Below, in pieces: positions 7,606 to 56,260 of a stretch of 64,000 nucleotides of DNA. Within the stretch, counting starts at the first letter, position 1; every line of letters begins with the position of its first letter. The DNA is taken from NCBI GenBank assembly GCA_025060105.1, contig JANXCS010000004.1, positions 62,001 through 126,000 on the forward strand, given 5' to 3'. Origin of the DNA: Pseudothermotoga sp. (GTDB lineage Bacteria; Thermotogota; Thermotogae; Thermotogales; DSM-5069). The notes below the pieces were generated by a model. That model had not been told where the DNA came from. It saw nothing but the letters and a program-made list of their open reading frames with translations, and searched no databases. Both the position numbers and the translations under genes were made by a program.

Positions 7606-8804
7606 AATATCTCTCCAAAGATCCCGATGAATGGAGAAAGAAGGAAAGTGAGATTCTCAAAAGAGAACAGGAGAGAACCCAGAAGCATCGCAAGCGTGGG
7701 TTTTATTTTTTAATTCTGAACCTCGTTGTGGTTTTCCTCTTCTTTTTTGGTATCAGAAATTATTACGCACAGTTGTCTATAGAGAAATCCCCAACGAACC
7801 AGATCCTGATCGTGTGTGAGGACGTCCATGCTTCCGGTACTCCACTCGATGTTCAGATCAGACTATACAACAATTCCGACAAGAAGCGTGAAGTTACGGT
7901 GTCCGAATTCACTTTTCAGATCTTCAACAATGAAAATCAACAGTTCTACAATTTCAAACAATCCCAGCCTGTGAAAGCGACCTTCGAACCGTTCACCAGC
8001 CGTTTGCTTTTCGATTTGAAGAGAGAAAGGGAAATAACACAGCTTCCATCCGGTGAATACACGATCCATGTGGAATTGAACATAAACGGCGAGAGAACCT
8101 CAGCACAAAAGAAGTTCAGAAGCGTAGAACGCTATCAACTGATCGTCGAGAACCTCAACGATTTTTATTTTGTGGGTGAACAGGCACAGCTGAAGGTGAG
8201 CCTGATCAATCAAACCGCTCGAACTCAAGATCTGAGGGTGGATTCTTTCACCGTCTCTTTGAAACACGACGACAGAACCATTTGGCAGAACGCAGTGAAG
8301 ACCAAGCCGATCTGGCAGGGAGTCAAAGTCGGAGAAATCATCGACTTAGTCGAAAAGATCTCGGTACCGTTCAACGAGGAAGGAATATACACACTCCAAA
8401 TCGATTGTGTGGTTAATGGTTCGACCAGCTCGTTGGTGATGCCGGTCGCCTGCATCAAGAATGCTGAAAAAAGTTTAAAGAAAATGAAAATCTACACAGA
8501 TGCTCCCAAAATTCACAGTTTGAGAAGCCCGCTCCAGTTCTCCGTTTACATCTTGAACGATTCAAAAGACCAAATCTTCATAGAAGTTGAGGAAATCATG
8601 GTTTCTCTCATCCCCTCTTCACTGAATTTCAAAAAAGGACCTGTACGCATGTGGCTCACGCCGTACTCTAAGTACGAAATATTCAAGTTTTATCCATACA
8701 GCATTTCAGCCATAACACAACCTGGTAGCTACAAGTTGTTGGTGAAAGTCACAACGAAGAACGATCGACTCGATTTTGAATCGATCCTTCAGGTGAACGA
8801 GTAG
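7602..8804 (+). CDS. Membrane-anchored protein with three beta-sandwich repeats
   Basis: Four hundred residues, start ATG overlapping the pilB stop. A highly charged cytoplasmic end of about 33 residues, rich in Lys, Arg and Glu, is followed by one hydrophobic helix (about 34-50, YFLILNLVVVFLFFFGI). The rest is extracytoplasmic and falls into three similar parts beginning near residues 62, 178 and 293, each with a VQIRLYNNSDKKREVTV or LKVSLINQTARTQDLRV type strand and ending in an IYTLQIDCVVNG or SYKLLVKVTTKN type strand. The pattern is of Ig-like/BsuPI-like sandwich domains. No enzyme motif is seen. Its place after pilB suggests an envelope or secretion role. Confidence 0.7.
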   Translation: MKYLSKDPDEWRKKESEILKREQERTQKHRKRGFYFLILNLVVVFLFFFGIRNYYAQLSIEKSPTNQILIVCEDVHASGTPLDVQIRLYNNSDKKREVTVSEFTFQIFNNENQQFYNFKQSQPVKATFEPFTSRLLFDLKREREITQLPSGEYTIHVELNINGERTSAQKKFRSVERYQLIVENLNDFYFVGEQAQLKVSLINQTARTQDLRVDSFTVSLKHDDRTIWQNAVKTKPIWQGVKVGEIIDLVEKISVPFNEEGIYTLQIDCVVNGSTSSLVMPVACIKNAEKSLKKMKIYTDAPKIHSLRSPLQFSVYILNDSKDQIFIEVEEIMVSLIPSSLNFKKGPVRMWLTPYSKYEIFKFYPYSISAITQPGSYKLLVKVTTKNDRLDFESILQVNE

Positions 8805-8815
8805 AATATTCAATT

Positions 8816-8832
8816 GGAGGTGCTCTTCCATA
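8816..8832 (+). promoter_or_regulatory. Shine-Dalgarno site and AUA start codon of mutS2
   Basis: GGAGGTG at 8816-8822 is a near-perfect ribosome binding site. Seven bases downstream is ATA 8830-8832, in frame with MutS2. There is no ATG, GTG or TTG in the frame between the upstream stop and GTG 8920, so the site points to initiation at AUA. Confidence 0.7.
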
Positions 8833-11133
8833 GAAGTTCATACTCTTGAGAGACTCGATTACGACAGGTTTCTTTCCCTGCTGGAGAGATATGCAACAAC
8901 TCAACTCGGTAAAAAGCGAGTGCGCTCGCTCAAACCCAAGAAAGATCCCGCTAGAGAACTGAAGTTCGTCGAAGAAGCCATTGAACTCGTAAAATCTTCT
9001 GAGTCTCTGTTGCCTTCTGGTTCCAACAGGATAGATATAGAAGGTATTCTAGAAAAACTCGTCGCCGGTTTCGTCTTGGAACCAGTTCAACTGTTGAGCG
9101 TGGCAGACGCGATCGTAGCGACGAGGATGACGAAGGAAAGGCTCGAGCGACTCGCTGACACCTTCACGCTGAAAGAGCTTGCTAGGCCAATAGAACCAGC
9201 CATGAGCTTGGTGGAAGAGATTCACAGATGTATCGATCCGAACGGATGGGTGAAGGACGAAGCATCCGAAAGATTGAAGCAGGTCAGACAAGAGATGAGG
9301 TCAACGCTCGAAGAGATAAAGAGAAAGAGTGATTCGTTCATAAAGTCGAACAGAACCTTCCTTCAAGAGCCCATATGTGTCCTCAGAGATGGGAGACATG
9401 TTTTCCCCGTCAGAGCCAGTTATAGAAGTCAGGTGAGGGGTATAGTGCATTCGATCTCATCATCCTCGGCGACCTGCTTCGTTGAACCAGATGAGCTCGT
9501 ACCATTGAACAACAAGCTCTACGAACTCAAAGAGGAAGAAGAGAAAGAGATCGGCAGAATTTTGAGGGAATTGACAGCACTCGTCAGACAGAATTTGAAG
9601 CGCGTCGAAGATGGACTAGATTTCGTCTCTGTTGTCGATGTGATTCAAGCAAAAGCTCTCTTTGCGATCGAATACAGAGCCATAGTCGTTTACCCGTCTT
9701 CGAAAAAAATCGTGAAATTGGTTCAAGCGAGACATCCTTTACTCGATCAGTCTACGGTCGTACCCATCGATTTGGTCATACCCGAAAACAAGTGTGGTTT
9801 GATCATGACGGGGCCAAACACGGGTGGCAAGACTGTCTCGTTGAAAACTGTTGGCCTTTTCTGCTGCATGATGATGTCGGCCATACCTCTACCTTGTGCA
9901 CAAGGCACAGAACTGTTCGGTTTCAACAGTGTATTCGTTGATGTCGGTGATGAACAAAGCATAGAACAGAATCTCAGCACTTTCTCATCACATTTGAAGA
10001 ACATAATCCTAGCTCTCAATTCGGCCAACGATGACAGCCTCGTGTTGCTCGACGAACTGGGTGCTGGGACAGATCCCGTCGAGGGTGCCGCACTCGGTCT
10101 CGCCATCATAGAAAGGTTGAAAAAGATCGAATGTAAGTTCATGGTCACCACGCACCTCACACCCATAAAACTGTACGCGGTGAACGATGAAAAACTCGTG
10201 AGCGCGTCGATGGAATTCGATCCTGAAACTCTCAAACCAACCTATCGTATATTGATGAACGTCCCGGGAGGTTCGCACGCACTCGAGATAGCCCAGAAAC
10301 TTGGGCTCGATGAGTCCATCCTCCATTTGGCCAGAAACTATCTTGGGAAAGACTATGCAGAGGTACAGAAGGTCATAGAAGAATACCAAAAACAGTTGAC
10401 GCTCATGAGGAAGAGGATCGAGGAGCTCGAGAACGAAAGGTTCCAACTCGAAAAAACGAAATTGGAGTACGAGAGGAAGTATCAAGAATTGAAACAGAAA
10501 AAGATAGAGGACATCGACAGGGAACTGAAACAGCTCTACGATTACATAAAACAGGCGAAAAGGGAAGTGGATGAGACGATAAGATCGATCAAGACTCAGC
10601 AGGATCTAGCGAGCCTGAAGGATGCCTCCAAGCATTTCGAAAGTCATGCGACCAAGGTCAGACAGATTCAATTGGATCAGAGAGCAAGCAGTGTGGAATC
10701 AGAAGTGGCAGTGGGCGATACCGTGAGATTGCGCAACGGCGATGCGGTTGGTAAGGTGGTTGAAAAGAGGGGCGATAGGTACATCGTCGATTTCAACGGT
10801 TTGAGGCTCGAGGCACGCGCCAAAAATCTTGTGAAAGTAGAACAAATGAAGGAACAAGAACGAGAGATCGCTCACGTGCCCAAGTTTGCTTTAGAAAGAC
10901 CCGAGATAGACGTACGTGGCTTAACGGTTGAAGAAGCCGAACCTTTGATCGAGAGATTCATAGACGATCTGCTCATGTCAGATTTCAAACAAGGTTACAT
11001 CATCCACGGTAAGGGAACCGGTAGACTCGCCGTCGGTATCTGGGAAATCCTGAGGAGAGATTCGAGGGTGAAGCGGTACAGATTTGGGACACCCAACGAA
11101 GGAGGAACGGGTGTTACGGTGGTAGAAGTATGA
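8830..11133 (+). CDS. mutS2: MutS2 with Smr domain, AUA start
   Basis: MutS2 binds branched DNA and collided ribosomes; it acts in recombination control and ribosome quality control, not mismatch repair. From AUA 8830 the protein has 767 residues: core/lever domains (1-300), ABC ATPase with TGPNTGGKTVSLK (Walker A) and LVLLDELGAGTDPVEG (Walker B), a long coiled coil (about 520-620), a KOW-like segment near VGDTVRLRNGDAVGKV and a C-terminal Smr nuclease domain with IDVRGLTVEEA and HGKGTGRL. Starting at the first standard codon, GTG 8920, would remove 30 residues (LERLDYDRFLSLLERYATTQ region) that are conserved at the MutS2 N-terminus. Stop overlaps the next ATG. Confidence 0.92.
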   Translation: MEVHTLERLDYDRFLSLLERYATTQLGKKRVRSLKPKKDPARELKFVEEAIELVKSSESLLPSGSNRIDIEGILEKLVAGFVLEPVQLLSVADAIVATRMTKERLERLADTFTLKELARPIEPAMSLVEEIHRCIDPNGWVKDEASERLKQVRQEMRSTLEEIKRKSDSFIKSNRTFLQEPICVLRDGRHVFPVRASYRSQVRGIVHSISSSSATCFVEPDELVPLNNKLYELKEEEEKEIGRILRELTALVRQNLKRVEDGLDFVSVVDVIQAKALFAIEYRAIVVYPSSKKIVKLVQARHPLLDQSTVVPIDLVIPENKCGLIMTGPNTGGKTVSLKTVGLFCCMMMSAIPLPCAQGTELFGFNSVFVDVGDEQSIEQNLSTFSSHLKNIILALNSANDDSLVLLDELGAGTDPVEGAALGLAIIERLKKIECKFMVTTHLTPIKLYAVNDEKLVSASMEFDPETLKPTYRILMNVPGGSHALEIAQKLGLDESILHLARNYLGKDYAEVQKVIEEYQKQLTLMRKRIEELENERFQLEKTKLEYERKYQELKQKKIEDIDRELKQLYDYIKQAKREVDETIRSIKTQQDLASLKDASKHFESHATKVRQIQLDQRASSVESEVAVGDTVRLRNGDAVGKVVEKRGDRYIVDFNGLRLEARAKNLVKVEQMKEQEREIAHVPKFALERPEIDVRGLTVEEAEPLIERFIDDLLMSDFKQGYIIHGKGTGRLAVGIWEILRRDSRVKRYRFGTPNEGGTGVTVVEV

Positions 11134-13223
11134 AAACTCTCTTCGCGCTCGATGTGGGAACAAGGAAAGTGGCTGGCCTACTGGCCATTTTCGATGAAGA
11201 AACGTTGACGGTGATGGATTTCGAGACCATAGAACATCCTGTACGTAGCATGCTGGATGGACAGATACACGACATCAAGAGCGTTGCGAGGATCGTGGAG
11301 AAAGTCAAGAGAAACCTTGAGAGTAGGAACGACGTATCACTTGACGACGTCGCCGTGGCAGTTGCAGGACGCTATTTGAAAACACAGATCGTTGAAGCCA
11401 GCTTGAAAATCCCAAGTAGAGCGATCGATGAAAGGATCGTTAGAGAGCTCGAAGCACAGGCCTTATCCAAAATTTCTTTTCTGGACGAATCTGGCACGAG
11501 ACTCTACTGCGCGGGATATTCCGCTCTGGAATACAAGCTGGATGGATTGTGGGTGAAGAATCCTATCGGTCATAGGGGAGAAGAATTGTATGCAAAATTG
11601 ATCGTGGCCATGTTGCCGAATCAAGTGATAGATGCGATGATGAGCGCCTTACATTTGGCCGGTTTGAGGTGCTCCTTCTTGACACTCGAACCCATGGCGG
11701 CCTTAGAGGTCGCGGTGCCAGACGAGCTGAGGTTTTTGAACATAGCTTTGGTGGACATCGGTGCGGGCACCAGCGACATCGCGATCGCCAAAGCTGGGAA
11801 CGTCATCGGTTACGACATGGTGGCGATGGCTGGCGATGAAATAACGGAAGCCATAGCTCAGTATTATCTACTCGACTTCAAGACGGCGGAGATGCTGAAG
11901 AGATCCATCGAGACACGACAAAGAATGGAAGTGAGAAACCTCACGGGAGAAACGATCGTCGTTGAGCGATCCGATCTCGAAAGAGTTGTGGAACCCATCG
12001 TCAGTCAGATCGCGGAAAACATAGCTCAACGCATAGAATCTTTGAACTTGGGTAAAACGAGCGCGGTTCTGCTGGTGGGTGGCGGTGCCAAGCTCTCTCT
12101 TTTGAGGCAAAAAATAGCCGAAGCTTTGCATTTGCCGAAAGAACGTGTCGCACTCAAATCGGTCGAAGAATGCGATAGGATCAAATCCGTCAAGGAAGGT
12201 TTCGTCGGAAGTGAGTACGTCACACTGGCCGGCATCGCGTACATGAAGGCGAAGGAGATTGGATCGGTCTACGATGTGGTCAAGCTGAATGGAGAGGAAG
12301 TACGCTTGCTCAAGTTGGATCGGTCTCCGACGGTACTTCAGTTGCTCACCCAGTGTGGTTACAGTGTTAGGGACTTGATAGGAAAGGTACAACCTTCGAT
12401 CAGCTACAGACTCAACGGTGAATTGAGGACCGTTTCAGGTTTCGTCGTGAAAAGATACAGAGTAAAACTGAACGGTAAAGAGTGTACCCTCCATCAAACA
12501 CTGAGGAACGGAGATGAGGTTGAGGTAGAACCACTTGGAGATGAAAACGTCAACACCTTGAAACTCAAAGATCTCGTTAAACCGATTCGAGTGTTCCTGA
12601 ACAATTCAGAGATCTTCAGCCTGCTTCCCACCGTGATACTCAACAACGAAGAGATTCAAGAGTTGGACAGAACCATCAACGACGGAGATGAGATAACCAT
12701 CCGCTGGCCGACGGAAGAGGAGATCTTGCAGTCTTTGAAAGAAAAGTTGGGTTTCATCAACTACTCTATGAACGGTGAAATGAAAAGAATTTCGAAATTC
12801 AAGTTGAACCTCAAGACCGTTGAGAAGAACGAACACGAAATACGCTATCTTTTCGAAGGTACCGAGCCTAAGATAAAAGATATCCTCCCCGAGCCACAAC
12901 ATGTGAACGTGAAGTTCAACGGAAGGGAGATCAGGATCTTTCAGAAGAACCACACCGTGCTCGTGAACGGTGAATACATCAGTTCAGATGCATCGCTTCA
13001 AGATGGTATGGAGATCTTTCTGCCAAAATTCGAACCCATCGTGGTTGACGTATTGGCGAGTGTGGAAATAGACACAAAGAATTTGAAGGACTACACGATA
13101 TTGCTGAACGGAAAACCAGCAAGTTTCATAGATCCAATCAAAGAAAACGATGAAGTGAACTTCATTCCGCGTTCAAAAGCTCTCGATGAAACCGAAGGAG
13201 CATCTCAATCTTCCTCCGAGTAG
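11130..13223 (+). CDS. FtsA-like actin-fold protein with beta-grasp-like repeats
   Basis: A 697-residue protein. Residues 1-345 are an FtsA-type ATPase: FALDVGTRKVAGLLA, VDIGAGTSDIAI and VLLVGGGAKLSLL. Residues from about 375 on are not FtsA: they contain several copies of a short pattern, a strand with LNG or FNG followed by a GDEV/GDEI/DGMEI/NDEV turn (for example LRNGDEVEVEP, INDGDEITIRWP, KENDEVNFIP), which looks like tandem beta-grasp (ThiS/ubiquitin-like) domains. Proteins of this layout occur in Gram-positive bacteria and Thermotogae and are annotated as cell division or pilus assembly (PilM-like) proteins; function unknown. It is translationally coupled to mutS2 and overlaps the convergent gene by 51 bases. 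Confidence 0.75.
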   Translation: MKTLFALDVGTRKVAGLLAIFDEETLTVMDFETIEHPVRSMLDGQIHDIKSVARIVEKVKRNLESRNDVSLDDVAVAVAGRYLKTQIVEASLKIPSRAIDERIVRELEAQALSKISFLDESGTRLYCAGYSALEYKLDGLWVKNPIGHRGEELYAKLIVAMLPNQVIDAMMSALHLAGLRCSFLTLEPMAALEVAVPDELRFLNIALVDIGAGTSDIAIAKAGNVIGYDMVAMAGDEITEAIAQYYLLDFKTAEMLKRSIETRQRMEVRNLTGETIVVERSDLERVVEPIVSQIAENIAQRIESLNLGKTSAVLLVGGGAKLSLLRQKIAEALHLPKERVALKSVEECDRIKSVKEGFVGSEYVTLAGIAYMKAKEIGSVYDVVKLNGEEVRLLKLDRSPTVLQLLTQCGYSVRDLIGKVQPSISYRLNGELRTVSGFVVKRYRVKLNGKECTLHQTLRNGDEVEVEPLGDENVNTLKLKDLVKPIRVFLNNSEIFSLLPTVILNNEEIQELDRTINDGDEITIRWPTEEEILQSLKEKLGFINYSMNGEMKRISKFKLNLKTVEKNEHEIRYLFEGTEPKIKDILPEPQHVNVKFNGREIRIFQKNHTVLVNGEYISSDASLQDGMEIFLPKFEPIVVDVLASVEIDTKNLKDYTILLNGKPASFIDPIKENDEVNFIPRSKALDETEGASQSSSE

Positions 13224-22548: not shown

Positions 22549-23527
22549 TCTGTTCACCCTTCTTGAGTAGCACCAGCATCACTGGTACCCCAACGAAGGC
22601 TGTGATCACTCCAATGGGCATTTCGGTGGGACTCACAATGGTCCGTGCGATCGCATCACACACGCACAAAAAAATGGAACCGATGATAGCACTCGAGACG
22701 AACAGAACCCTGTGGTCATTCCCAAAGACCCTACGGGCCATGTGCGGTGTGATCAAGCCAACGAAACCTATGACTCCCGTGTTCGACACCACGGAAGCGG
22801 TCGCAAAGCTACCGAGAACGTAGACGATGACCTTCACGAGTTCGGTGTTCACACCGCTCATCTTCGCTTCGATTTCACCGATGGCCATGGCGTTCAGCTG
22901 GTTCGACAAACCCATCGCAACGAAGAAAAAGATCGCAAAACTGACGGAAGGACTGATTAGATCTTCCCATCCCACACCAGAGAGACTTCCAAACAACCAA
23001 ACGTAAGCGTGGGTTATGTTCCTTCTGAACAGCATGAGCAGTGTGATCGTTGCCGAACTGAACAGCACACTCACCATGACCCCACTGAGCACCAACTCCA
23101 CGATGGGTATCGTACCATTCCTTCTGGCGAGGAACATGGCTGAAAGTGAAGCGAACATGGCGAATGCGAAACTCAGTAGAGGCAATCTGTACAGATACTG
23201 AAAACTGCTCACCGTGGCAAGGTATATAGACAAAACCGCGCCAAAAGAGGCGCCGGAGGAGACGCCAAGGAGGTAAGGATCGACCAAAGGGTTTCGCAGC
23301 AATCCTTGAAACGATGCACCGACGGTCGCCAAACTCGCACCGGCCACCAGAGCCATCAGTACACGCGGAAGTCTCAAGTTCCAAACGATGTTTCTGTATC
23401 GAGAATTGCGATCGAAAATGGCCAAGATGACCTCCAAAAATTTCGTCTTGACAGTTCCGACCGATAGACACACCAAAACGATCAGTGTGAAAACGATGAT
23501 CAGAGCGAGCCAACTGAAAAGTTTCAT
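22526..23527 (-). CDS. btuC: Cobalamin ABC transporter permease (BtuC/FecCD family)
   Basis: A 333-residue permease with about ten helices. Family signatures are LRLPRVLMALVAGASLATVG and GLLRNPLVDPYLLGVSSGA near the N-terminus and GLITPHMARRVFGNDHR, the ATPase-coupling loop, in the C-terminal third. The family includes siderophore and B12 permeases; the riboswitch upstream points to B12 or cobinamide. Start ATG overlaps the binding-protein stop. Confidence 0.92.
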   Translation of the reverse strand: MKLFSWLALIIVFTLIVLVCLSVGTVKTKFLEVILAIFDRNSRYRNIVWNLRLPRVLMALVAGASLATVGASFQGLLRNPLVDPYLLGVSSGASFGAVLSIYLATVSSFQYLYRLPLLSFAFAMFASLSAMFLARRNGTIPIVELVLSGVMVSVLFSSATITLLMLFRRNITHAYVWLFGSLSGVGWEDLISPSVSFAIFFFVAMGLSNQLNAMAIGEIEAKMSGVNTELVKVIVYVLGSFATASVVSNTGVIGFVGLITPHMARRVFGNDHRVLFVSSAIIGSIFLCVCDAIARTIVSPTEMPIGVITAFVGVPVMLVLLKKGEQNDRNITE

Positions 23528-24417
23528 TTCCCGCCACCGTAGAAATCGCTGTAGAATTTTTCAACGAACTTCACCACTTGGGGAACTGGGAGAGTCAACA
23601 GATAGCCATCGTACACGTACACGCGTTTATTTTTCACAGCCTTCACAGCCTTCAAAGTTGGATGGTTCAAGATCTTTTCTTTTATCTGCTCCTCCGTAGC
23701 GGGTGCATAGTGAGTCACTATTATCACATCCGGATTCTGCGAGACGATGTACTCCATCGATAGTGGCAGAAAACCGTTCGGGCCTGTGAACATCGCCGCC
23801 ACGTTCGCACCACCAGCCAGTGTGATGAGTTCGTTGAGATAAGAACCCTGTCCACAAGTCCAGATTTCTCTCACGTCTGATCCAGGAACGTCCAGCATGC
23901 ATAGAACTTTGACTCTCTTATCGAGTGGTATGTTGTAGGCCTCTTTCGCGACCTTCAGGTAGTATTCTTCAAGCTCCTTAGCCAATTTTTTAGCTTTGTC
24001 TGGTACACCCATGATGGTTCCGACCAAGATCAGATCGTTCAAAATCTGTTGAACCGTGTTGGCATTCAGAACAACCACTGTGAGCTTCTGCTCTTCAAGT
24101 TTCGCAACCTCGGGAAGTTGAAAACCACCGAAAATCAAGACCAAGTCCGGGTTGAGGCTGACGATCTTTTCCACGTTCAATGGAAACAGATCTCCTATCT
24201 TTTCGGCTTTGAAATCGTCCCAGTTCGTGACTGCGATTATTCTGTTCTCTAGACCTAAATATTGGAGAAACTTCGTGGTGGATGGTGCTGCGCAGATGAC
24301 CCTCTCTGGCCGTTTCGAGATCGTGACCAATCTGCCCGCATCGTCGATGATGGTTATCGGATAGGCCAAGAGCAGAGTTACCAGTAGAACGAAAAGAACA
24401 GTCAAAAACCTCTTCAC
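23524..24417 (-). CDS. btuF: Cobalamin-binding periplasmic protein (BtuF-like)
   Basis: A 297-residue class III binding protein: signal peptide (LTVLFVLLVTLLLAY, no lipobox Cys), then DDAGRLVTISKRPERVICAA and NPDLVLIFGGFQLPEV, typical of BtuF/FhuD-type receptors joined by one long helix. GTG 24417 is the start, with AGGAGGTG upstream; the open frame runs further up through the riboswitch but that part is not coding. It is first in the btuFCD run and is the gene whose leader carries the riboswitch. Confidence 0.9.
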   Translation of the reverse strand: MKRFLTVLFVLLVTLLLAYPITIIDDAGRLVTISKRPERVICAAPSTTKFLQYLGLENRIIAVTNWDDFKAEKIGDLFPLNVEKIVSLNPDLVLIFGGFQLPEVAKLEEQKLTVVVLNANTVQQILNDLILVGTIMGVPDKAKKLAKELEEYYLKVAKEAYNIPLDKRVKVLCMLDVPGSDVREIWTCGQGSYLNELITLAGGANVAAMFTGPNGFLPLSMEYIVSQNPDVIIVTHYAPATEEQIKEKILNHPTLKAVKAVKNKRVYVYDGYLLTLPVPQVVKFVEKFYSDFYGGGK

Positions 24418-24444
24418 GAAAAACACCTCCTCGGCAAAATTTTT

Positions 24445-24475
24445 CACCACCCTCTCGGTTCCGGAGAGAGTGGTG
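24445..24475 (-). terminator. Hairpin of the riboswitch expression platform
   Basis: CACCACTCTCTC pairs with GAGAGGGTGGTG over 12 positions with one G-U, loop of seven bases, followed in the transcript by AAAAATTTT. It sits between the B12 box and the btuF ribosome binding site. The short U run is weak, so control could be at termination or through the hairpin loop acting as L13. Confidence 0.55.
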
Positions 24476-24655
24476 CTCTCGTCGAAGGGCAGGTCTCCCG
24501 GCTTCCGGATCGCCCTACTCCCCACGCCTTCCCAGCTTTCCGCCAGTGGCACGTGTGGGTTTCGTCCCCGGTTACGGTGGCGCCCCCGCGCCGGATTTTC
24601 ACCGGCTTCCCTTTTGAACCTCCTCGGTACCCTCCGACGCCTCCATTCACTTTTC
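24445..24655 (-). promoter_or_regulatory. Cobalamin riboswitch of btuFCD
   Basis: Read on the minus strand, the leader holds the conserved blocks of an adenosylcobalamin riboswitch: AAAAGGGAAGCCGGTG with AATCCGGC, then GCGCCACCGTAACCGGGG, GGGAAGGCG and the B12 box AGCCGGGAGACCTGCC (24487-24503). A 12-bp hairpin follows at 24445-24475, then AAAAATTTT, then the AGGAGGTG of btuF. The hairpin may be the P13 element or an intrinsic terminator; both are compatible. Binding of cobalamin would lower btuFCD expression. Confidence 0.92.
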
Positions 24656-25888
24656 CGTTGTATTATACAACGACCTCACACCTTTCAAGAAAACAGGAAG
24701 AAGATAAGCAAAAGCAGGCAAAAACAAACGAATTTCTCTCAAGACTCCAACGGTGGCGTTCAAGATGAAGAAAGGTATCAACCAAGGCCAAGTCCTGCGG
24801 AAAAATTCATCTGACTTCATGTGATTGATAAAAACTAAGATCAAGGCAAAGAAGATCGCTGGGTACACCAAAGACCAAGGATCTGTAAAGTTGTCGATCC
24901 TGAAAAAAGCTGTGTAATACTCACTGCTTGGGAAAATGACTTTACTCCAAAGATACGTCATCAAAATTGGTGGTGCGGAATGAAGGAGTATCCTTATCAG
25001 ACTGGATAATCTTTTCTCAAAACGTGCCAGTCCGTAGAGTAGAGCGACGAAGAGCGCATGGTCTGTCCTGACAAAACACATCGCAACGATCGTTAAAAAG
25101 ATGCTCCACCAAGGTTTGTTTCGACGTATCAACCACATGGAAAAGACGAACAAAAAAACGGAGATCATGAACTCTTGCTGAGTGAAATCCGCATAGGAAA
25201 AAATGAGAAACACCGCGAAGCAGAAGAGCCCAAAATATGCCAGCATTTCGTTCTCAAAAGATCTCAACCAGAGGTACAACACGAAGAACAACAGAAAAGC
25301 GAAGACGAACTTCATCGTCGCATAACCGTTGATCAGTTTCGTTAGTTCGCTGTCGCTGTAGAAAACCTGCCTGACCTCGTAAGGCAAACTCTCCACGAGA
25401 CTGTGCGCAAAAGTGAAGGGATCGTAGAACCATTCTTTCCAACCGATTTGATTCGCGAAATTCATAACAAGACCGGTGACGATAGGATTTTTGGTCAACT
25501 CTGTCATTCTCTCTCTGATGAAAGATTCCAAACTCTTCACGAATTTCTCTCTTTCTCGAGTGGGAAAATGCGATTCAAGGTTGAGCTCGTTGTCGAGATT
25601 TGCAAGGGGACTTTCATCATAACCACACCATCTTTTCAAATGTCTGTAGGTGTTACAGTACCAACGCACAGGAGAGTATTTAAAGACATATTCGACGAGG
25701 AAATACGGTGCCACCCTGTACTGATTTGGGGCTGGTCCTTCGCCTCTAATGAATTTCAAATGATTGTAGTAAACCATGAATCTACCTGCGATCGCGTACA
25801 TGTTTTCAACCAACCAGAAGTTCACAGCGGTGACCACGTAAGCTATCACAAAAACTGTTAAAAGTAAAAAGAGCGTCTTTTTTCGCAC
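24647..25888 (-). CDS. Polytopic membrane protein, possible GT-C type glycosyltransferase
   Basis: A 413-residue protein with an N-terminal helix (LFLLLTVFVIAYVVTAV), a large extracytoplasmic loop of about 150 residues (NQYRVAPYFLVEYVF near residue 55), and then eight or nine membrane helices ending in a short basic tail. A big first loop followed by a helix bundle, and a QYR-type motif in that loop, recall GT-C lipid-linked sugar transferases, but I find no acidic pair that would settle it. Last gene of the UbiA-SMR-DUF362 set; GTG start with GAAGGGAGA upstream. Treat as an unknown membrane protein. Confidence 0.6.
   Translation of the reverse strand: MRKKTLFLLLTVFVIAYVVTAVNFWLVENMYAIAGRFMVYYNHLKFIRGEGPAPNQYRVAPYFLVEYVFKYSPVRWYCNTYRHLKRWCGYDESPLANLDNELNLESHFPTREREKFVKSLESFIRERMTELTKNPIVTGLVMNFANQIGWKEWFYDPFTFAHSLVESLPYEVRQVFYSDSELTKLINGYATMKFVFAFLLFFVLYLWLRSFENEMLAYFGLFCFAVFLIFSYADFTQQEFMISVFLFVFSMWLIRRNKPWWSIFLTIVAMCFVRTDHALFVALLYGLARFEKRLSSLIRILLHSAPPILMTYLWSKVIFPSSEYYTAFFRIDNFTDPWSLVYPAIFFALILVFINHMKSDEFFRRTWPWLIPFFILNATVGVLREIRLFLPAFAYLLPVFLKGVRSLYNTTEK
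24662..24688 (-). promoter_or_regulatory. Putative promoter of the riboswitch leader
   Basis: TATAAT on the minus strand at 24662-24667 with TTGAAA 15 bases upstream (24683-24688), a slightly short spacer. The expected transcript start near 24655 is just before the first riboswitch block. The promoter lies inside the 3' end of the preceding gene. Confidence 0.55.
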
Positions 25889-49656: not shown

Positions 49657-50952
49657 TCAGCATTTTGGAAGTCTCACGATGAACTCGCTACCTTTCCCAA
49701 CTTCGCTTAAAACTTCTATATCACCGTTCATCGCCTTTACGAGCTTGTCGACCAGAGCCAAGCCCAAACCATAACCCGGTGTGGAACGAGATCTGTCGGA
49801 TTTGTAGAACTTCTGGAATATCTTCTTCTTCTCTGATTCCTCTATACCAACTCCGAAGTCTTTGACGCTGATCCATCCCTCTCCACAACGTAAGATAACC
49901 TTCTTCTCCTGAGTCGAAAATTTCACTGCGTTCTCCACCAAAGCTTTGAGAATGAGCTGTAGAGCTCTCACATCGGCACAACCGTATCCTTCACCTTCAA
50001 CTTGAAAGTTGAAGTCTCTGAACTGCTTGGAGAAATCTTCACTAGCTTCTTGAAGAAATCTTCTAAGATCCAACTTCACCAGTTCGATTTTCGCTACAGG
50101 TTTAGATAAAGTCAACAAATCTTCCGTCAGATTTATGACCTGCTGAACGGTCTCTCTTATCGTTCTAGCCGACTCCACAACGATGCCGCTGTTCGTCGAG
50201 AACTTTTCGACCAACTCGGCGTAACCTTGAATGCTCGTGAGCGGTGTCCTCAACTCGTGAGAAACGTCGTTCAAGAAATCGTTCTGCATCTCAAAACCAA
50301 GTTGCAATCTGTTGAGCATGTCGTTGATCGTCCTTGCAAGTTGAGAAACTTCATCTTCCTTACCAGGATCGTACACACGCTTGCTCAAATCCGAGGCACT
50401 TATGCTCCTCAATTCCTCAGTGATGCGCCTCATGGGAGCGAGGGATTTGTTAACAAAATAGTGCCCTAGCAAAAAGGAAATGAGGGTGAAGATGATCCAG
50501 AGGATCAAAAACATGCGAGAAAGCAATCTAAGGAAATCTCCGATTCCTCCTGCGGGGGAAAGTAGGAACAACTCACTTTGACCTAAAATGGTTTGCGCGA
50601 TGATTCTCACAACGAAGTACTCATTGTTACCGAGTTTGAGGTAAGTGGGCCTTCTTGTGGCAAGAACGTGTGACAAAAACCGTCTGAAATTTTCATTTTC
50701 CGTGTCTATAGTTCCAAAGATCACCTCACCGGAGGAATTGATGATGACCAAACCCGGAGGCAACCTATGTCTGAGTATATTCCTCATTGGTGCACTGAGG
50801 TAGGAAGATACTGCCTGTCTGAGAGCGTCAACCGAGCGTGCTATGTGGACCTGTTTTGTGACGTTGTAGGCCAGAAGCAAACCCAATCCGAGTATCAGCG
50901 AAAAAAGGATCGTTTGCATTATGCTGAGCTTCCACTTAAGCGTCGAGAACAT
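49657..50952 (-). CDS. Membrane sensor histidine kinase
   Basis: About 431 residues. Two membrane helices (TILFSLILGLGLLLAYNV near 13-30 and MFLILWIIFTLISFLLG near 145-161) enclose an extracytoplasmic sensor of about 110 residues. A HAMP domain (RRITEELRSISASDLSKRV), the phosphoacceptor H in DVSHELRTPLTSIQGYAELV, an N box (LVENAVKFS) and GYGLGLALVDKLV follow. ATG 50952 is favoured over TTG 50958 for spacing to GAGAGG. It overlaps the response regulator gene by 17 bases, so the two form one system; signal unknown. Confidence 0.92.
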   Translation of the reverse strand: MFSTLKWKLSIMQTILFSLILGLGLLLAYNVTKQVHIARSVDALRQAVSSYLSAPMRNILRHRLPPGLVIINSSGEVIFGTIDTENENFRRFLSHVLATRRPTYLKLGNNEYFVVRIIAQTILGQSELFLLSPAGGIGDFLRLLSRMFLILWIIFTLISFLLGHYFVNKSLAPMRRITEELRSISASDLSKRVYDPGKEDEVSQLARTINDMLNRLQLGFEMQNDFLNDVSHELRTPLTSIQGYAELVEKFSTNSGIVVESARTIRETVQQVINLTEDLLTLSKPVAKIELVKLDLRRFLQEASEDFSKQFRDFNFQVEGEGYGCADVRALQLILKALVENAVKFSTQEKKVILRCGEGWISVKDFGVGIEESEKKKIFQKFYKSDRSRSTPGYGLGLALVDKLVKAMNGDIEVLSEVGKGSEFIVRLPKC

Positions 50953-51589
50953 ACCCAATCCCTCTCACAGTCTTGAGAAACTTCGCAACATCACCGAGTT
51001 TATTCCTCAGGTATTTCACATACACGTCTACTACGTTCCGACTTATGTTTTCAGAATCACCCCAGACTTTCTCCAAGATTTGTTCTCTGCTCACCACCTC
51101 ACCTCGATGTTCACAGAGCATCTCCAATATGGCAGCTTCCCTGTCTGAGAGACTGGTCTCACTCCCATCCTCAAAATAAAGCTTTCTCATCTTTGGAACG
51201 AACGTTACTGAACCTATGCGGAAGGTTTCCTTCTTTCTGACTCTCCTCGCCACACTTTCTACACGCGCTAAAAGCTCATCCAAGTGAAACGGCTTTGGAA
51301 CGTAATCGTCCGCACCTTTCTTGAGACCACGGATCCTGTTCTCCACTTCGCTCCGTGCAGTCAGCACGACTACTCCAACCTCTTCATCAACGGACCTGAT
51401 CTTCTCTAAAACTTCGAATCCATCCATACCGGGTAGCATCAAATCCAAAACGACCACTGCTGGATCGAACAATTGAAAGAGTTGCCAGCCTTCTTCCCCG
51501 TCTTTGGCGATCTTCACTTCATAACCATGACCTTCGAAGAGGATCTGCAGCAATCGTGAAATTTTCTGATCATCTTCCACTATCAGCAA
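50936..51589 (-). CDS. OmpR-family response regulator
   Basis: A receiver (LIVEDDQKISRLL, phosphoacceptor Asp in AVVVLDLMLPGMDGFEV, VLTAR, VPKPFHLDELLAR) joined to a winged-helix DNA-binding domain (SDREAAILEMLCEHRGEVV, VDVYVKYLRNKLG, VRGIGYVLDA). Partner of the kinase that follows. From TTG 51589 it has 217 residues. An ATT at 51595 in the same frame lies 10 bases after AAGGAG and would give MRLLIVEDD, the usual receiver start, while the TTG is 16 bases from that site; TGA closes the frame just before. It overlaps the transglycosylase gene by 20 bases. Confidence 0.92.
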   Translation of the reverse strand: MLIVEDDQKISRLLQILFEGHGYEVKIAKDGEEGWQLFQLFDPAVVVLDLMLPGMDGFEVLEKIRSVDEEVGVVVLTARSEVENRIRGLKKGADDYVPKPFHLDELLARVESVARRVRKKETFRIGSVTFVPKMRKLYFEDGSETSLSDREAAILEMLCEHRGEVVSREQILEKVWGDSENISRNVVDVYVKYLRNKLGDVAKFLKTVRGIGYVLDA

Positions 51590-52115
51590 GCGAATAGTTC
51601 ATCAGCTCCTTATAACGATCCAGCACCTTCACTGCGTAAGAACTTCTGGAGTTACCACCATTGTAAGCTTCCAACGCTTTGAGGATGTTTCCTGAAAACC
51701 TTTCAAGCTGGTACTTCAAATACAACGTACCCATCTCCACGTTGAGCTTGTGATCCCACAACAATCGTGCCCAGCCGTCCTCAGGCTCCTTCAAACCAAA
51801 AATGCGACAAACAAACCGCGCCGTCTCAGGTTTTATCTGCATTAAACCCAGTTCACCGTGAAGTCCAACAACGTTTCTGAACTCGCTCTCCACCGAAATC
51901 AAAGAGATTATGAGCACGTGATCCACATCGAATTTCTCACTGACTTCAAGTATAGTTCTGTAAAGATTTTCAATGTACGTGTTGTCCGTAACCAAGCCGT
52001 GCTTCGAACGTGTTTCGAAGACGAGTTTGAAGAACCAAGCTGGTATCTCCACGGCCATCAAAAGGATCGATTGAAAAAACACCACCAAAATTGTTAACAA
52101 TCTCACAGTTTTCAT
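51570..52115 (-). CDS. Lytic transglycosylase (SLT domain), exported
   Basis: A 181-residue cell-wall enzyme. An N-terminal helix (LLTILVVFFQSILLMAV) acts as signal or anchor. The SLT domain has the catalytic Glu in IISLISVESEFRN, then GELGLMQIKPETA and ALEAYNGGNSR, the three classic motifs. It cleaves the glycan strand of peptidoglycan to anhydromuropeptides. ATG 52115 gives the signal peptide at the right place; the upstream frame overlaps the dnaX promoter. It begins the transglycosylase-OmpR-kinase run. Confidence 0.88.
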   Translation of the reverse strand: MKTVRLLTILVVFFQSILLMAVEIPAWFFKLVFETRSKHGLVTDNTYIENLYRTILEVSEKFDVDHVLIISLISVESEFRNVVGLHGELGLMQIKPETARFVCRIFGLKEPEDGWARLLWDHKLNVEMGTLYLKYQLERFSGNILKALEAYNGGNSRSSYAVKVLDRYKELMNYSLADSGR

Positions 52116-55067: not shown

Positions 55068-56255
55068 ATGAAGAAAATGACCATAAGAGACGTCGATTTG
55101 AGCAAGAAGACTGTGATCATGCGCGTAGATTTCAACGTGCCAGTTGAGAATGGAAAGGTAACCGACGATACCCGCATCGTTGCAGCGTTACCAACTATAA
55201 AGTACGCCGTAGAACATAACGCCAAAGTCATTCTGCTCTCGCATTTGGGAAGGCCGAAAGGGATCGATCCTAAATACAGCATGAAACCAGTTGCTGAGCA
55301 TTTGAAGCAAATATCTGGATTGAACGTCATTTTCGTGCCACATTTGATCGGTGAAGAGGTGAAAAAGGCTGTCAAAGATGCAAAATTTGGTGATGTCATC
55401 GTGTTGGAAAATACGAGGTTTCACCCCGGAGAAGAGAAAAATGACTTGGAACTGGCAAGGGCTTGGGCAGAACTTGCCGATATACACGTGAACGACGCCT
55501 TCGGTACGGCCCACAGAGCGCATGCATCCAACGTTGGTATCGCTTCCTTCATACCGAGCGTTGCTGGTTTCCTCATGGAGAAAGAGATAGAATTCCTCAG
55601 CAAGGTGACTTACGAACCCGATCATCCATACGTGGTCGTTCTGGGCGGGGCAAAGGTGTCCGACAAAATAGGAGTCATCACGAATTTGATGAACAAAGCG
55701 GACAAAATTCTCATAGGTGGAGCCATGATGTTCACGTTCCTGAAAGTGCAGAACTTCAAAGTTGGCTCATCCTTAGTCGAAGACGATAAGCTCGAACTGG
55801 CAAAGCAGATCTTGGAGCAAGCATCACAGAAAAAGGTGAAAATAGTGTTGCCCATCGACAGCGTCATCGCGCAGAAGATCGAAGCCGGAGTCGAGAAGAA
55901 GATTGTAGATCTAAAAGACGGAATCCCAGACGGATGGATGGGACTGGACATTGGTCCTAAAACCGTTCAAATGTTTGAAAAAGAGCTCGCCGATGCGAAG
56001 ACGGTCGTCTGGAATGGGCCAATGGGTGTGTTCGAAGTGGACGATTTCGCTGAGGGAACGAAAGGGGTCGCATTGGCGATCAGCAAGGTGAAAGGAACGA
56101 CCGTGGTTGGAGGCGGAGATACCGCCGCAGCCGTCGCTAAATTCGGTCTCGAATCTGCCTATTCTCACGTTTCGACTGGCGGTGGAGCTTCACTGGAATT
56201 CCTCGAAGGTCGGGAGTTGCCTGGCATAAAGAGCATAGCTGACAAAAAAAAATAG
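55068..56255 (+). CDS. pgk: Phosphoglycerate kinase (also N-terminal half of a PGK-TIM fusion)
   Basis: Makes ATP from 1,3-bisphosphoglycerate; 395 residues. [54 protein letters not shown] and GGGDTAAAV are all in place. The chain ends in ADKKK, encoded by GAC and nine A, then TAG. The triosephosphate isomerase frame is open across this point in the -1 register, so slipping on the A9 run would give a continuous PGK-TIM of about 648 residues as found in T. maritima. Strong GAGGGGG site before ATG. Confidence 0.97.
56244..56252 (+). other. A9 slippery run joining pgk to tpi (-1 frameshift site)
   Basis: Nine A right before the pgk stop TAG (56253-56255). In the -1 frame the codons run AAA ATA GAT AGA TTG ATC CTC with no stop and lead straight into triosephosphate isomerase. 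Either ribosomal -1 slipping or slipping of RNA polymerase on the A run would work. Confidence 0.8.
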
Positions 56256-56260
56256 ATAGA

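Follow-up and report, generated by a model that had tools for sequence, protein, structure and literature searches.

A conserved putative AUA start codon behind an extended Shine-Dalgarno sequence in mutS2 of Pseudothermotoga and its relatives

The window analyzed here is a 64,000-nucleotide stretch of the genome (1.92 Mb, 21 contigs) of a heat-loving Pseudothermotoga sp. In it mutS2 lies between a gene for a 400-residue protein without an NCBIfam family and a gene (11130-13223) that shares ATGA with the mutS2 stop and encodes a 697-residue FtsA/PilM-like actin-fold protein with ThiS-like stretches, scoring below the FtsA cut-off (Table 1). A sequence-only reading of this DNA had placed GGAGGTG 7 bases before an ATA codon at 8830 and had found the frame free of canonical start codons up to a GTG at 8920. 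Both statements are borne out: the spacer is CTCTTCC (sequence from 8810: TCAATTGGAGGTGCTCTTCCATAGAAGTTCATACTCTTGAGAGACTCGATTAC), and a search of the mutS2 frame from 8797 to GTG 8920 yields no ATG, GTG or TTG. The protein read from 8830 matches the NCBIfam mutS2 profile TIGR01069 with 795 bits (cut-off 400), residues 4-766 aligning to profile positions 3-789, and its MutS domain V ATPase (PF00488), Smr (PF01713) and SH3/KOW-like (PF20297) domains all score above gathering. MutS2 is a ribosome-rescue or DNA-repair protein. The Bacillus subtilis member of this protein family shares the MutS ATPase, KOW/SH3 and Smr domains and has been shown in vitro to split collided ribosomes (PMC10897456). 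That paper discusses no unusual start codon, and Thermotogota MutS2, in contrast, is known here from sequence.

Table 1. Features of the mutS2 start region and of the TPR-repeat protein gene (window positions unless a contig is given)
Feature	Position	Strand	Remarks
In-frame TGA stop upstream of mutS2	8794..8796	+	mutS2 frame opens at 8797
TAG stop of the gene preceding mutS2	8802..8804	+	frame differs from mutS2 frame
Extended Shine-Dalgarno GGAGGTG	8816..8822	+	full complement of the 16S tail (CACCTCC); -15.3 kcal/mol; kept in 11/11 family genomes
Putative AUA start codon of mutS2	8830..8832	+	same aligned codon: ATA 10/11, ATT 1/11 family genomes
mutS2 coding sequence, 767 aa	8830..11133	+	MutS domain V, SH3/KOW-like and Smr domains
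Earliest canonical in-frame codon, GTG	8920..8922	+	30 codons into mutS2; without Shine-Dalgarno
TPR gene, sister genome G002	C1:104011-105666 (L214)	+	AGGAGGTGGATCAAG-ATA-AAG start
TPR gene, genome of the window	G000:C1:9151-10806 (L218)	-	outside the window

The 3' end of the 16S rRNA of this genome is GGATCACCTCCTTTCT, so that all seven bases of GGAGGTG pair with it. The resulting duplex energy at ATA 8830 is reached by 0.15% of random window sites, compared with -3.1 kcal/mol at GTG 8920. Because a strong Shine-Dalgarno (SD) is usual in the window (median -11.3), with -15.3 attained by 6 of 55 other genes, the mutS2 SD is not diagnostic by itself. Across a family sample of 11 genomes from 4 genera, five of them single-contig, in which identity to the window MutS2 falls as low as 50%, the start lies at one aligned codon behind GGAGGTG in every genome, the exception to ATA being the ATT of G005. 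The motif stands 6-8 nt before this codon with duplex energies of -13.0 to -17.4 kcal/mol, while the next canonical codon and the two after it in each genome pair weakly (-0.8 to -9.1 kcal/mol). Single-sequence folds were used to look for an RNA structure conserved over the mutS2 start, and these folds vary among genomes.

The alignment of homologues that the sequence-only reading had proposed thus gives AUA in ten genomes and AUU in one at the aligned position, with SD and N-terminal helix conserved in all 11, and supports its proposal that initiation at AUA restores this helix. It also disposes of the rival raised in that reading, that a sequencing or assembly error conceals an ATG: although one G-to-A transition would be enough, ATA recurs in ten separate genomes, including the five single-contig ones and the nearest named relative, Pseudothermotoga sp. 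RSWP20 (TTTGGAGGTGCTTTCAT-ATA-GAA-GTT), leaving an error with practically no chance of being the explanation. In two genomes an in-frame stop almost adjoins the AUA (TAA-GAA-ATA in G009, one codon before; TGA-CCC-GAG-ATA in G006, two codons before), so that neither has a possible start upstream of it. The nearest canonical codon downstream falls, depending on the genome, at codon 5, 13, 14, 16, 17, 22, 30, 33 or 66 (the last in G009), which are non-homologous positions. In G003 and G004 codon 6, within the helix, is a TTG that lacks an SD, and G005 has an in-frame GTG within its SD and two further canonical codons more upstream.

A start at GTG 8920, with the upstream homology left untranslated, is the choice of standard gene finders and of the open reading frame listing, and would yield a 737-residue MutS2 that lacks the first helix and loses 30 conserved residues. 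However, the protein stretch encoded by codons 2-30 stays conserved even where identity drops to 50%, and most of the variation falls at third positions: pairwise differences at codon positions 1/2/3 are 0.36/0.25/0.61, similar to the 0.48/0.29/0.67 of the 60 codons after codon 30. Since the differences fall by codon position as they do in those next 60 codons, codons 2-30 appear to be translated. Profile position 3 of TIGR01069 is covered only when residues upstream of 8920 are counted in, and GTG 8920 lacks an SD, its counterpart being a different codon of the gene in most lineages. Initiation there is accordingly extremely improbable. Scarcely more probable is a supply of MutS2 by ribosomes of the upstream gene, through readthrough, frameshifting or reinitiation, in place of de novo initiation at AUA. 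The upstream stop lies 25 nt before the AUA, a distance at which reinitiation coupling is possible, but that gene ends in another frame (8802 against 8830) with no slippery site seen, readthrough would be blocked by the near-adjoining stops of G009 and G006, and reinitiation would use the AUA anyway. Translation of mutS2 almost certainly begins at AUA 8830, judging from these comparisons.

Conservation of the start codon itself exceeds that of ATA codons elsewhere in the gene. The start column holds nine ATA and one ATT in the ten other genomes, whereas the 22 internal ATA columns of the window mutS2 all fall short of nine, with ATA in 75 of their 220 cells; the family genomes are kin, so these are not independent trials, but the tree behind the internal columns is no different. 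As the start column outconserves the internal ones, its third base appears to be kept at A, though one transition to G would make it AUG. Comparison within the family shows the putative AUA start to be under selection and inherited in common. mutS2 therein combines an aligned AUA, AUU or AUC (AUH) codon and no usable canonical codon with a strong SD at the right spacing and an excess of start-codon conservation. When the window was compared with the syntenic stretches of five relatives (57 ORFs with orthologues), mutS2 was the sole ORF of the 57 to show, at a place free of gene overlap, homology to distant genera that sets in well ahead of the first canonical codon, the two distant genera providing orthologues for part of the 57.

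Beyond what the sequence-only reading had claimed, the start is conserved, and such starts are found again in other families and in one more gene. Among the mutS2 starts read across the class, that of genus g12 of family f2 (2 genomes), a second Thermotogales clade, is ATA with no canonical alternative. In family f9, 11 of 20 genomes have ATT, frequently straight after a stop, three have an ambiguous ATT-TTG, and ATG is found in genus g20 (six genomes). A TTG leaves the mutS2 start ambiguous in the f2 genera g7 and g13. In the Thermotoga-like genus g5 the aligned codon is GTG or ATG (G025 offers GTG or TTG), f3 has ATG, and canonical codons are available in f4-f8 and f11. Because g5, f3 and several outer families use AUG, GUG or UUG, the weak start appears dispensable for MutS2 function in general. 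On a MutS2 tree built with the start region left out, at least three changes between AUH and canonical starts are needed; three gains and a smaller number of gains with several losses are not distinguished by the tree.

Initiation factor 3 (IF3) is encoded by infC, and the infC start is ATC in 7 and ATA in 4 (genus g4) of the 11 family genomes. Across the order (loci L033-L062) infC apparently starts at AUC, AUU or AUA, and most genomes have no canonical start at the SD. A scan for SD-plus-AUH frames without a canonical start covered the 64 kb window and 467 kb of the sister genome G002, and in the latter returned mutS2 and a gene for a 552-residue TPR-repeat protein. The other matches were dropped by eye, being by look antisense or out-of-frame ORFs or having better canonical starts. 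Homology of the TPR protein begins at the AUH codon, (M)KAIVYLPL..., in most genomes of the order, and AUA or AUC stands at the start in 9 of the 10 family genomes read. The AUH start is clear in G000, G001, G002, G004, G006 and G008; in G007, G009 and G010 a canonical codon lies 2-3 codons ahead of it, G005 has GTG, and the aligned codon of G029 (f2) is ATG. Since the TPR gene also starts at AUA, mutS2 would not be alone but part of a small set of genes with conserved AUH starts.

In E. coli the AUU start of infC mediates autoregulation, and control by IF3 is proven there. A comparable mechanism can be outlined for mutS2. The strongly complementary SD GGAGGUG would position the 30S subunit, and fMet-tRNA (anticodon CAU) would pair with A1 and U2 but face an A-C mismatch at position 3. 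At codon bases 1 and 2 IF3 accepts nothing but Watson-Crick pairs, and it excludes weak pairs at the third (PMC10158994). By analogy, IF3 would destabilize the mismatched complexes, limiting initiation to about a tenth of that at AUG, and more IF3 would mean less mutS2 initiation. MutS2 would then be made at a low, IF3-sensitive rate, following the same logic as infC self-regulation. The mechanism of PMC10158994 further predicts that some MutS2 would lack the initiator Met, through drop-off and restart at codon 2. Given the AUC and AUA starts of infC and the precedents of E. coli infC and Streptomyces sigR, start-codon discrimination is likely present here.

Known non-canonical starts resemble that of mutS2 in several respects. 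As in infC (AUU/AUC/AUA), an AUH codon stands behind a strong SD with a third-base mismatch to the initiator tRNA and is conserved across species; infC, however, feeds back on IF3 itself, whereas mutS2 would be a downstream target. Staphylococcus aureus ccpN (AUA) and cvfC1 (AUU), like infC (AUA) there, have extended SDs, and reporters with non-canonical starts give about 10-30% of AUG; ccpN and cvfC1 also share with mutS2 a conserved non-canonical start in a gene that does not encode an initiation factor, but they are other genes of another phylum and were established by Ribo-Ret and reporters, mutS2 by comparison alone (PMC13009471). Streptomyces sigR likewise keeps its protein low through a non-canonical start and is misannotated by gene finders, but its start is GTC rather than AUA, it encodes a sigma factor, and repression of the start by IF3 was shown experimentally (PMC5472188).

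The mutS2 AUA is likely a weak start, by analogy with these cases, and probably serves as a deliberate brake on the amount of MutS2. That such a start is genuine but plays no part in sensing IF3, being a weak start retained since little MutS2 is needed, is a serious possibility if short of probable. AUA and AUU both occur, AUG or GUG serves in other clades, and no condition-dependent response is known for mutS2. On the other side, none of the 11 genomes has AUG, GUG or UUG although a single transition would suffice, while internal AUA columns change freely. The missing replacement indicates that a strong start is selected against, as expected equally under this possibility and under a role for IF3. 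Taken as a whole, genuine initiation at AUA, low and IF3-sensitive, with a strong SD compensating, is quite likely the explanation. Physiologically meaningful control of mutS2 by IF3, which the sequence-only reading had also suggested, is a more tentative proposal, somewhat below an even chance. Its purpose, speculatively, may be to keep MutS2 scarce or to couple it to initiation capacity. Further still from the data, and rather unlikely, is that Thermotogota possess a small IF3-sensed regulon on AUH starts that ties IF3 supply to MutS2 and the uncharacterized TPR protein and so sets the level of ribosome rescue.

Conserved AUH starts are already known as a kind, although to our knowledge very few bacterial genes start at AUA, AUU or AUC. 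Literature searches for non-canonical starts of MutS2 and for Pseudothermotoga start codons returned nothing relevant, and mutS2 as a carrier of an AUH start, its spread in Thermotogota and its TPR companion appear unreported in the literature searched. A widely conserved protein here keeps an AUH start family-wide, and gene finders limited to ATG, GTG and TTG would cut 5 to 66 residues from it. If control by IF3 holds, MutS2 supply would be tied to the initiation fidelity factor, a link not known to us for any earlier ribosome-rescue factor.

Three further sites were seen in the window. An OmpR/PhoB-type response regulator (50939-51595, minus strand) has the N-terminus (M)RLLIVEDD, which places its start on ATT 51595-51593; the codon is ATT in all four genomes of the genus and ATG in G006, a TTG two codons on is an alternative start, and the upstream gene extends over the start. 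At 56243-56260 the pgk stop overlaps tpiA at CAAAAAAAAATAG, where four genomes of the genus keep an A9 run. A good start is missing from tpiA, and the arrangement fits a PGK-TIM frameshift fusion of the kind known from Thermotoga maritima. Finally, a Cobalamin riboswitch (Rfam RF00174, 105 bits) at 24471-24649 on the minus strand overlaps the start of the ORF frame 23524-24675.
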